In this document: piece by piece, positions 30,684 to 41,278 of the stretch
Layout of the letters: every line of letters starts with the position of its first letter
Position numbering within the stretch: the stretch's first letter is position 1
From: an uncultured Alphaproteobacteria bacterium
GTDB taxonomy: Bacteria; Pseudomonadota; Alphaproteobacteria; HIMB59; GCA-002718135
Length of the DNA: 64,000 bases
Reading direction: 5' to 3'
Assembly: GCA_902614085.1 (NCBI GenBank)
Contig: CACMJS010000001.1
Location: 487,127 to 551,126 of the forward strand
Notes under the pieces: model-generated
Databases searched by the model: none
What the model saw: only the letters and a program-made list of their open reading frames with translations
What the model was told of the DNA's origin: nothing
Made by a program: the position numbers and the translations under genes

Positions 30684-31754
30684 TTAATTCAATTTATCTT
30701 TACGGTAATTAGATCGTATTTCATCTAACAGAATTGATTTTGACTTATCTTTTACATGCCAAAAATCCCAGCCATTACAACTTGGCAGTCCTTGTATTTT
30801 TGCTCCCATTTGATGAATAGAGCCTGTTAAATCTTTAATTTTAAGTGTTCCATCAATACTAACTGTTGCTTTAAAGCGTTCTTTTTTATCTGTTAATACG
30901 GCACCTGGTGGAATAATTCCTTGCTCGACTAATTCACCAAAAGGTACTTTTGGTAATTCTTTTCTGCTCTTTGCAATAGTGACAACTTCTTCTTTCAATA
31001 CTTTTGTATTCTTTAATCGTCCTTTTGAAAGTTTAACGTAATCTTTATCTTTTTCTATGCCAATAAAGTTACGTTGTAATTTTTTTGCAACAACAGCTGT
31101 TGTCCCACTTCCTGAAAATGGATCAAGAACAAGATCACCTTTGTTTGTCGATGCTAATAGAATTCGGTAGAGTAGAGCTTCAGGTTTTTGTGTTGGGTGT
31201 GATCGTTGATTGTTACCTTTACGTAATCTTTCTTTCCCAGAACAAATAGGAATATACCAGTCACTCCGCATTTGTTTTCCTTCATTTAGTTCTTTGAGGT
31301 TTTGATAGTTAAATGTGTATTTTGCTTCTCTTGACGTTGTGCACCATAAAAGTGTTTCATGAGCATTTGTGAAACGTGTGCCACGAAAATTTGGCATAGG
31401 ATTTGTTTTATGCCAAATAATATCATTTAAAATCCACAGACCTTCATCTTGTATTGTAGAGCCTACACGTAAAATATTATGATAACTTCCTATCACCCAA
31501 AGTGCTCCACCTTTTTTTAAAACACGTTTACATTCACTAAGCCATGCATTGGTAAATTGATCATATTCTTTATACGTACTAAATTTATCCCAATCTTGTG
31601 TAACTGCTTCGACTGTTGTTTGATCAGGTCTGTATAAAGTATCCTTTAATTGAAGATTATAGGGCGGATCAGCAAAAATAAGATCAACCGAATGATCTTT
31701 TAATTTTTTCATTTCCTTGATGGAATCACCCAAAATAATTTGATTTTTCTTCAT
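30684..31754 (-). CDS. ccrM: Cell-cycle regulated DNA adenine methyltransferase CcrM (GANTC)
   Basis: 356 residues, beta-class N6-adenine methyltransferase. The catalytic DPPY (29-32) precedes the AdoMet-binding [16 protein letters not shown], as in CcrM/HinfI enzymes. The roughly 90-residue C-terminal extension ([20 protein letters not shown]...[10 protein letters not shown]-like strand, then [18 protein letters not shown]) is the CcrM-specific DNA-recognition domain. CcrM methylates GANTC once per cycle and controls transcription of cell-cycle genes in Alphaproteobacteria. It lies downstream of rnhB, a conserved neighbourhood, but separated by a small-RNA candidate. Three GANTC sites lie in the 66 bases upstream of the ATG. 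Confidence 0.95.
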
Positions 31755-31766
31755 AATTGATAAAAA

Positions 31767-31820
31767 GAATCTTTAAGCAGATATGGAATCAGGTCAATTG
31801 AGTTATCAACAGGGGGAATC
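31767..31820 (-). promoter_or_regulatory. Cluster of three GANTC sites upstream of ccrM
   Basis: GAATC (GATTC on the coding strand) occurs at 31767-31771, 31786-31790 and 31816-31820, all within 66 bases of the ccrM ATG. At about 30% GC one GANTC is expected per roughly 360 bases, so three here is a marked excess. In Caulobacter, GANTC methylation in the ccrM leader represses its own transcription; the same autoregulation is inferred here. I do not see a convincing full CtrA site (TTAA-N7-TTAA). Confidence 0.6.
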
Positions 31821-31858
31821 TTTAGGTAGGGATAACCTTAAAATTTGGCCAAAAAAAT

Positions 31859-31881
31859 AAAAAAAGGGGTCCGTAGACCCC
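31859..31881 (-). terminator. Intrinsic terminator of the small RNA
   Basis: On the minus strand GGGGTC-TACG-GACCCC forms a 6-bp GC-rich stem with a UNCG-type tetraloop, followed directly by a run of T broken by one A (seven T, A, seven T). It is the clearest intrinsic terminator in the window. It ends the small-RNA candidate and would also stop rnhB read-through before ccrM. Confidence 0.88.
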
Positions 31882-31948
31882 TGGAATAGTTCATCAAATG
31901 GGAGGAATGATGAAACGTAATATCTATTTAGTGTTTGTCGCATCTTTT
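31859..31948 (-). ncRNA. Candidate small RNA resembling the alphaproteobacterial alpha-r8 (suhB/MmgR) family
   Basis: Two hairpins in about 90 nt. The first is a perfect 7-bp stem TTCATCA/TGATGAA (31908-31914 with 31890-31896) exposing the loop TTCCTCCCATT, an anti-Shine-Dalgarno-like CCUCC. The second is the intrinsic terminator ending in U-rich sequence. The alpha-r8 family (Rfam suhB; MmgR in Sinorhizobium) is built the same way, with a single-stranded UUUCCUCCCU and a terminator hairpin. A -10-like TATTAT lies at 31955-31960; no convincing -35, so the 5' end is approximate. Such RNAs usually act in trans on ribosome-binding sites. Family membership is from memory of the motif. Confidence 0.62.
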
Positions 31949-32006
31949 TGAAGCATAATAAAATAATATTTGGTATGCATTCTTTGCATGGATAAATTTG
32001 GATAAT

Positions 32007-32621
32007 TTATTTTTTTAATAACGATTTAATTGGTTCAAATGATTTTCGGTGAAATTGAGTTACACCGTGTTTGTGTATTGCATCAATATGTTTTTTAGTT
32101 CCATAACCTGCATTTTTTTTCCAATCATAAAATATAAACTTGCTATCAAGTATACTCATCAGTCGATCACGGTGAACTTTTGCAATAATAGATGCACTTG
32201 CAATCGATAAAGATTTTTTATCTCCGCCTATTATAGATTTTTCATTTTGATAATTTAATGAAAAGTTTCCATCAATAATAAGATGTGGATTTTCAAAATT
32301 AAATTTATTTATTACTCTTTTCATCGATAATTTTGTAGCTTCCAAAATATTAATTTCATCTATTTCTTCGACACTTGCGTAGCCTAAGTAATATTGAAGT
32401 TTTCTTTCTTTTTGTAATTTTTTAAAAAATAGAAATAATCTTTCTCTTTGTTTTGCTGTATGTTTCTTTGAATCAGTTATGGGTATTTCAGATTCTAAAT
32501 CATCATAATTAGAAAAATAACATCCACAACTTACCACAGGGCCTGCCAATGGACCTCTGCCAACTTCATCTAAACCAATTACAGGTCCATCAATTGATTT
32601 TTCTATAGAAAAATCAGTCAC
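32007..32621 (-). CDS. rnhB: Ribonuclease HII
   Basis: 204 residues. RNase HII motifs: the GLDEVGRGPLAGPVVSCGC strand with the DEVGRG signature (two catalytic acids), LIIDGNF (third Asp), and GGDKKSLSIASASIIAKVHRDRLM, ending with the GYGTKKHIDAI-HG turn. It removes ribonucleotides from DNA-RNA hybrids. The start overlaps moaB by one base. Adjacent to ccrM across the small-RNA region, as in other Alphaproteobacteria. Confidence 0.96.
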   Translation of the reverse strand: MTDFSIEKSIDGPVIGLDEVGRGPLAGPVVSCGCYFSNYDDLESEIPITDSKKHTAKQRERLFLFFKKLQKERKLQYYLGYASVEEIDEINILEATKLSMKRVINKFNFENPHLIIDGNFSLNYQNEKSIIGGDKKSLSIASASIIAKVHRDRLMSILDSKFIFYDWKKNAGYGTKKHIDAIHKHGVTQFHRKSFEPIKSLLKK

Positions 32622-40318: not shown

Positions 40319-41278
40319 ATGACTCAATTTCCCATAGAAAATAAAAAAATCAAATTAGCAATGCTAGGAATGACGGAAGGAAATGGACATCCTTACTCAT
40401 GGAGCATAATTATTAATGGTAGATATAATGCAGAAGCTTTAGCAAAATGTCCTTATGCAGCAATTATTGATTACATTTCAAAGCAACCAAAAAATACCTT
40501 AGGTATAAAAGATGTAGAAGTTTCACATGTATGGACAGATAATCCTGATGATGCAAAGCTTGTCGCTGAAGTTGCAGAAATTGAAAATATTGTTGAAGAT
40601 CCAAAAGATGTGATTGGACAAGTCGATGCAGTTTTAGTTGCAACTGATATTGGTTCAGAGCATGTTGAGAGGTGTAAACCATTCGTTGAGGCAAATGTAC
40701 CAATCTTTGTTGATAAACCATTATGCGATAATTTTACTGATCTAAAAATTTTTCAGCAGTGGATTGATGAGGGAAAGCCCATAATTAGTTCTTCTGCAAT
40801 GCGATATTGTAAAGAGTATGAGCCATACCATCAATCAACTTACGAACTAGGTGATTTAAGATACATTAATGTCACTATGGCAAAAAGTTGGGAGAAATAT
40901 GGGATACACGCTTTAGAAACATTATATCCAATTGTTGGTCCAGGCTTTACTTCAATACAAAATCTAGGAGATAAGAATAGAAACATCGTTCATCTACAAC
41001 ATACAAAAGGAGTTGATATAAATATCGCAAATGTCCAAGATATGCTCGGAGGTTTCGGTCTTGTTTCTTTAGTTGGAACTAAAAGTGGAATACAAATAAA
41101 ATCAAATGATACTTTTTATGCATTTAAAAAACAATTAGAGTCATACGTTCATTATTTACGAACAGGTATAAAACCAGTTCCATGGGAGGAAACTAAAGAA
41201 TTAATGCAACTTGTTGCTGCTGGTATAAAGAGTAGAGAAGAAGGTGGAATTAAAATTAATTTAAGTGAGGTTAATTAG
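40319..41278 (+). CDS. Gfo/Idh/MocA-like oxidoreductase, divergent
   Basis: 319 residues. The dinucleotide-binding loop is altered (AMLGMTEGNGHPYSWSIIING, no GxGxxG), but the rest follows the family: VDAVLVATDIGSEHVERCKPF, then FVDKPLCDN as the EKP-type motif with a lysine, and a C-terminal substrate domain with WEETKELMQLVAAGIKSREEGG. It directly abuts the next SDR gene. An unusual cofactor loop suggests a distinct subgroup, so activity as a dehydrogenase is likely but not proven. Its neighbours suggest a step in a sugar-acid or hydroxy-acid pathway. Confidence 0.75.
   Translation: MTQFPIENKKIKLAMLGMTEGNGHPYSWSIIINGRYNAEALAKCPYAAIIDYISKQPKNTLGIKDVEVSHVWTDNPDDAKLVAEVAEIENIVEDPKDVIGQVDAVLVATDIGSEHVERCKPFVEANVPIFVDKPLCDNFTDLKIFQQWIDEGKPIISSSAMRYCKEYEPYHQSTYELGDLRYINVTMAKSWEKYGIHALETLYPIVGPGFTSIQNLGDKNRNIVHLQHTKGVDINIANVQDMLGGFGLVSLVGTKSGIQIKSNDTFYAFKKQLESYVHYLRTGIKPVPWEETKELMQLVAAGIKSREEGGIKINLSEVN

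Follow-up and report, generated by a model that had tools for sequence, protein, structure and literature searches.

A predicted small RNA with an anti-Shine-Dalgarno hairpin loop between rnhB and ccrM in an uncultured alphaproteobacterium

Introduction

The cuckoo or CcsR RNAs are anti-Shine-Dalgarno (anti-SD) RNAs of Alphaproteobacteria. CcsR copies form arrays that are co-transcribed with a DUF1127 gene (PMC10253847). AbcR1 and AbcR2 (alpha-r15) exert anti-SD control over the binding proteins of ABC transporters (PMC7143759), and the alpha-r14 RNA NfeR1 (SmelC397), which is Hfq-independent and has three anti-SD loops and a nitrogen-linked promoter, represses the mRNAs of substrate-binding proteins (SBPs) (PMC10746234). 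In the alpha-r8 RNAs a weak hairpin is followed by a single-stranded UUUCCUCCCU, and there is a terminator; these RNAs usually lie beside the FGase gene and act with Hfq, and one of them, SisA, represses uptake genes (PMC12559287).

Here we examine a locus in a 64,000-nucleotide stretch of DNA (the window, meaning the whole stretch analyzed) from an uncultured alphaproteobacterium, which a preliminary description had read as a small RNA of the alpha-r8 (suhB/MmgR) family. We take the order concerned to be AEGEAN-169/HIMB59 (PMC10308909).

Results

The flanking genes, rnhB (32007-32621) and ccrM (30684-31754), are both on the minus strand and were identified by sequence and conserved neighborhood, not by family search. 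Between them, and on the same strand, the perfect 7-bp stem with an anti-SD loop that had been proposed is confirmed at 31914-31890: arms TTCATCA (31914-31908) and TGATGAA (31896-31890) form seven perfect pairs around TTCCTCCCATT (31907-31897). In the transcript this loop would read UUCCUCCCAUU, with the anti-SD core UCCUCCC, and the loop core is invariant in the aligned RNA loci. The strong GC-rich terminator was likewise correctly described; its stem, AGGGGTC-TACG-GACCCCT, runs from 31882 to 31865 on the minus strand and is followed by a T run. The predicted small RNA (31858-31946, minus strand, ~85-89 nt) starts near 31946-31944 and ends in this T run, forming a conserved block with its own promoter and terminator that is detected by both covariance models described below (R1 and R2).

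Several measures set this locus apart. The folding energy of a 93-nt stretch is -22.2 kcal/mol, compared with -12.5 for shuffled sequences (z -3.9; 1 of 200 shuffles was as good). Four terminator-like sites occur in 2.1 kb, versus 0.6 expected, and the one belonging to the RNA has the most G-C pairs. Scans of the source genome covered 1.21 of its 1.65 Mb, read in pieces; within this 1.21 Mb the RNA is the only intergenic case of a CCTCC hairpin loop directly 5' of a strong terminator. A further candidate, TTTCCTCCCA at 41183, was rejected as lying inside a coding gene. As far as sequence can tell, the preliminary description was right in seeing a small RNA gene that carries an anti-SD loop and ends in a terminator of its own, and we regard the existence of such a gene here as highly probable. 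With an independent gene, a promoter, a terminator and an accessible anti-SD element all present by sequence, it would belong to the functional class of anti-SD trans-acting small RNAs.

A blastn search with 103 nt of the locus identified homologs in 23 genomes of the genus, including its own (78-100% identity, E 1e-13 to 1e-49), and model R1 was built from these. R1 matched in 80 of the ~102 genomes of the genus; R2 adds two more (G035 and G062), for a total of 82. The genus genomes are mostly incomplete; in G024, which has no match, a contig end falls inside the RNA. The homologous contigs in named records come from single-cell genomes (isolates AG-...) of uncultured Alphaproteobacteria. In a search of 162 genomes of the order, R1 had no match in any of the six other genera, and searches with R1, R2 and a combined model together restrict the RNA to one genus of the seven. 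Class-wide, the combined model gave three weak matches outside the genus, all of them terminators only, and the weak R1 matches elsewhere in the source genome (L032-L035) were set aside as being without the anti-SD loop. The order's second family is represented by a complete genome of 1,410,127 bases (G037), presumably that of HIMB59, in which the RNA is absent by both R1 and R2. A scan of 1.2 Mb of HIMB59 did turn up, at ~520044, an intergenic hairpin with CTCCTCC in its loop (AACCTGCC-ACTCCTCCTCCG-GGCAGGTT) and a T run, possibly an unrelated anti-SD RNA.

Thirteen weaker R1 matches fell at another locus, between genes whose sequences we read as those for a PlsC-like acyltransferase (plsC) and ETF-QO. 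At this site a sister clade has palindrome, promoter, anti-SD hairpin and terminator all present, and the sibling RNA has UUUUUCCUCCCAAUU as its loop, an AU-rich stem of different sequence, and its own terminator. Model R2, built from the sister-clade RNAs alone, finds the ccrM-type RNA in the source genome at 49.7 bits, so each model detects the other form. No genome carrying both RNA loci was found; nine sibling genomes with full-length ccrM have a short rnhB-ccrM gap without the RNA, and in the source genome the ETF-QO site is a gap of ~47 nt without the RNA. In G062 (L127), a copy of the sibling RNA that seems to have decayed (TTTTCCCTCTAAATTAATA, with a broken terminator) lies between the ETF-QO and acyltransferase genes.

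Because the sister clade has the unit elsewhere and an RNA-free rnhB-ccrM gap, the RNA is best regarded as a gene unit rather than a 3' UTR or leader. The notion that it is not trans-acting, being simply the end of the rnhB transcript with a terminator that insulates ccrM, draws on its place between two co-directional genes, where the terminator would stop read-through. This notion is very improbable: a promoter motif of its own is present, and the sister-clade unit stands between a divergent plsC and a convergent ETF-QO gene while rnhB-ccrM there lacks it. For the same reason, the position next to ccrM, which the preliminary description located correctly, is the whole of the link between RNA and methyltransferase gene. 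Separately, the ccrM leader contains three GANTC sites (31767-31771, 31786-31790 and 31816-31820), a TTGACC -35-like box (31797-31792) and a DnaA-box-like TTATCAACA (31803-31811). Other genera retain similar elements, with the GANTC sites and TTATCAACA also found in HIMB59, which suggests methylation feedback on ccrM.

Between the ccrM-type and sibling forms, stem sequences differ with pairing kept, and the loop core CCUCCCA is kept as well. In an alignment of 43 sequences, compensatory changes affect 9 of 14 pairs, 96% of cells pair, and both-side changes number 72 cells as against ≤13 in slid controls; because the sequences were aligned by fitting them to the model, and most of the changes fall between two or three clades, the covariation represents few independent events. 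Little covariation is visible among the 23 close homologs alone. The two forms probably share a common ancestor, a view that rests partly on their shared loop and terminator. Very probably, the anti-SD loop is the working part of the RNA.

One feature has no role in that account, and counts against it. A conserved unpaired 5' segment, CAAAAAGATGCGACAAACACTA (31929-31950, minus strand), overlaps the predicted start and is nearly invariant in the 23 homologs, after which a variable spacer follows. A coding role was rejected: the ATG of the segment falls inside the probable -10 box, and conservation extends to third codon positions. The RNA might instead work mainly by way of this segment (CAAAAAGAUGCGACAAA), which would act on a protein or on different targets, the CCUCC loop being auxiliary or protein-binding; in the main clade, conservation of the segment comes close to that of the loop. 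We consider this quite improbable, since the sibling RNA, which does not share CAAAAAGATGCGACAAACACTA, and divergent copies at the ccrM locus keep the loop but not the segment, and a complement of ≥11 nt near an ORF start was found at one site only, 47 nt upstream, in the 1.21 Mb of the genome that were read.

Upstream of the RNA, a palindrome, ATGCA-AAGAA-TGCAT (31975-31989, minus strand), covers the -35 region and is a probable regulator site. It is followed after 17 nt by a probable -10 box, TATGCT (31952-31957, minus strand), that is conserved in the alignments; the corresponding box of the sibling RNA is TATACT/CATACT. Of 76 distinct RNA loci, 62 of them ccrM-type and 14 sibling, 73 have exact ATGCA-N5-TGCAT. 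The centers come in some two dozen versions, and the spacing to the -10 box, which reads TATGCT, TATACT or a near variant, is constant. In 1.21 Mb of the source genome the exact palindrome is found four times, three of them intergenic, and one-mismatch sites number 84, of which two are intergenic.

Besides the RNA, the intergenic copies precede an ammonium transporter gene and a 58-aa ORF. The transporter (amtB, PF00909) has ATGCA-TTTTT-TGCAT in its upstream region (L234:661-945, equivalent to G000 C1:460661-460944), together with two tandem glutamine riboswitches (RF01739, 63.6 and 59.1 bits). From this arrangement we infer that the RNA and the transporter may be under a shared, putative regulator, perhaps a nitrogen-responsive one. 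Nitrogen-linked control of the RNA is a tentative proposal, somewhat less probable than not; a known nitrogen gene follows only one of the further exact palindromes. The third copy (G000 C1:31181-31443, L212) lies 17 nt before TATACT, upstream of the ORF, which is unannotated (MINVFNFFNKVYEDLSDKNYNY...). In HIMB59 the same palindrome occurs at 1024294, ~50 nt upstream of a gene for a substrate-binding protein whose SD is AGGAGGG, though that genome is without the RNA.

Membership in alpha-r8 did not hold up. An Infernal search with RF00519 gave no match in the window or the source genome, and none at E 10 in a 281-base slice; across the order, 0 of 162 genomes exceeded the gathering cut-off (41 bits), whereas a Caulobacter control matched. 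Sub-threshold RF00519 matches in the order were discarded, none having the CCTCCC core at the match, as were the Rfam matches obtained across the locus with E as high as 10, which were chance matches only. FGase (N-formylglutamate amidohydrolase, PF05013) had no match in the source genome and did match in the Caulobacter control. Hfq (PF17209) was found neither in the source genome nor in any of the 162 genomes of the order, 20 of which are ≥90% complete, while five control genomes matched. With its motif in a hairpin loop as well, the RNA is not recognizable from its sequence as an alpha-r8 RNA.

A divergent true member of that family (suhB/MmgR/SisA), missed by covariance models through AT-rich drift and Hfq loss, is a distinctly unlikely alternative. 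Size and terminator would fit, the core AUUCCUCCCA agrees with the alpha-r8 motif in 8 of 10 letters (9 of 10 for the sibling RNA), and alpha-r8 is reported from all Alphaproteobacteria except Rickettsiales (PMC12559287). Against this, in addition to the silence of RF00519 and the lack of any FGase or Hfq gene found, the motif sits in a hairpin loop instead of a single-stranded stretch, and the RNA is confined to one genus of seven.

GGAGG at SD distance precedes 41 of 1,231 ORFs in the 1.21 Mb, with ORF starts taken from a simple caller that favors SDs. By Pfam, 19 of these 41 genes encode SBPs. Such SDs mark 19 of 22 SBP-like genes compared with 22 of 1,209 other ORFs (p ~1e-27), a contrast to be read knowing that the seeds for the SBP set had in part been picked for their SD and that ≥4 more binding proteins without GGAGG were found, making it ~19/26. 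SBPs without GGAGG include ZnuA, PBP_like_2, Bmp, an iron-type SBP_bac_8, and SBP_bac_5 or similar. Among the GGAGG genes, GGAGGAA is present on 17 of the 19 for SBPs versus 2 of the 22 others; extension to GGGAGG is seen at only 5 of the 19 SBP sites. SBP genes rank best among predicted targets, and the top predicted duplexes include SBPs at C1:748297, C2:135747, C1:410569, C1:422718 and C2:129459, along with a PhyH gene.

The preliminary description had named atpE and ridA as examples of targets. atpE (AGGAGGUCUUA) falls outside the 45 top-ranked predictions; since SBPs account for so many of the GGAGG genes, transporters are likelier targets than this pair. That transporter genes are the main targets seems to us somewhat more probable than otherwise. 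The RNA could instead be a general anti-SD mimic or sponge for many SD-containing RNAs or other small RNAs, tuning overall translation with no defined transporter set. Its core is complementary to any GGAGG, and the 22 non-SBP genes carry that motif, but the concentration of GGAGGAA sites on SBPs makes this reading unlikely.

HIMB59, without the RNA, has the same SD bias, with GGAGG on 17 of 21 SBPs; strong SDs on SBPs therefore do not require the RNA, which would exploit them, and, given this similarity, targeting by the RNA is put forward as a proposal. An A before GGAGG is commoner in HIMB59 (15 of 17, versus 6 of 19 in the source genome, p 0.0008), the two genomes show no significant difference in the pairing energies of their SBPs (p 0.18), and a test of SD-flank coevolution against HIMB59 revealed no gain of complementarity. 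Given the similar bias and the lack of a significant energy difference, the SDs have not demonstrably evolved for the RNA.

Discussion

We consider it probable that this locus encodes a stand-alone, trans-acting, Hfq-independent anti-SD RNA that represses genes with strong SDs, a reading that builds on the gene unit, its conservation, stem covariation, relocation, the absence of a recognizable Hfq and the distribution of SD sites. An RNA of ~85 nt would be transcribed from its own sigma-70-like promoter (palindrome over the -35 region, N17, TATGCT) and end at its own terminator. A stable hairpin would keep UUCCUCCC open in the loop, mimicking the anti-Shine-Dalgarno tail of 16S rRNA, and the loop would pair with strong SDs (GGAGGAA, at best GGGAGGAAU) 4-8 nt before start codons. 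Pairing, which would have to proceed without Hfq, would block ribosome binding, and mRNA decay would likely follow. Because few genes carry such SDs and about half of the carriers encode periplasmic SBPs, the RNA would serve as a dimmer for nutrient uptake. A nitrogen-responsive regulator may act at the palindrome, which is also present before the ammonium transporter with its glutamine riboswitches.

Regulation is thought to be sparse in streamlined marine bacteria, and Hfq is the usual partner of base-pairing small RNAs; the best-studied RNAs resembling this one depend on it. If the proposal is true, the scarcity of strong SDs would be a targeting rule that provides economical control of nutrient uptake as a set. 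It would supply a candidate regulator for AEGEAN-169/HIMB59, a common small-genome ocean lineage with almost no experimental data on regulation. A broader picture is conceivable, if doubtful: a genus-wide, Hfq-independent, nitrogen-linked hairpin RNA, under joint control with the ammonium transporter through a putative palindrome-binding protein, that sets the levels of most SBPs and whose gene changed loci as a unit within the genus.

Among described families, alpha-r8 (MmgR in Sinorhizobium, SisA-D in Caulobacter; RF00519 suhB) resembles the RNA in length (~77-90 nt), in having one UUCCUCCC anti-SD element and in its Rho-independent terminator. The present RNA differs in being genus-restricted, in having no covariance-model match, and in presenting AUUCCUCCCA (8 of 10 letters) in the loop of a stable hairpin in place of the single-stranded 10-nt UUUCCUCCCU; the FGase neighbor of most species and the association with Hfq have no counterpart here, neither gene having been found. 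The alpha-r15 AbcR RNAs have three stem-loops, two anti-SD motifs, Hfq binding and tandem copies beside lsrB, a combination not seen at this locus, and in place of cuckoo/CcsR arrays there is a single copy between rnhB and ccrM. NfeR1 similarly places its anti-SD motif in hairpin loops on variable stems (PMC10746234), although it has three hairpins, each with CCUCCUCCC, compared with one anti-SD hairpin with UUCCUCCC and no Rfam match here. By this comparison, alpha-r14 NfeR1 is the nearest in mode of action, not in plan, and the RNA would be a further case, perhaps an independent one, of the logic seen in AbcR, NfeR1 and SisA.
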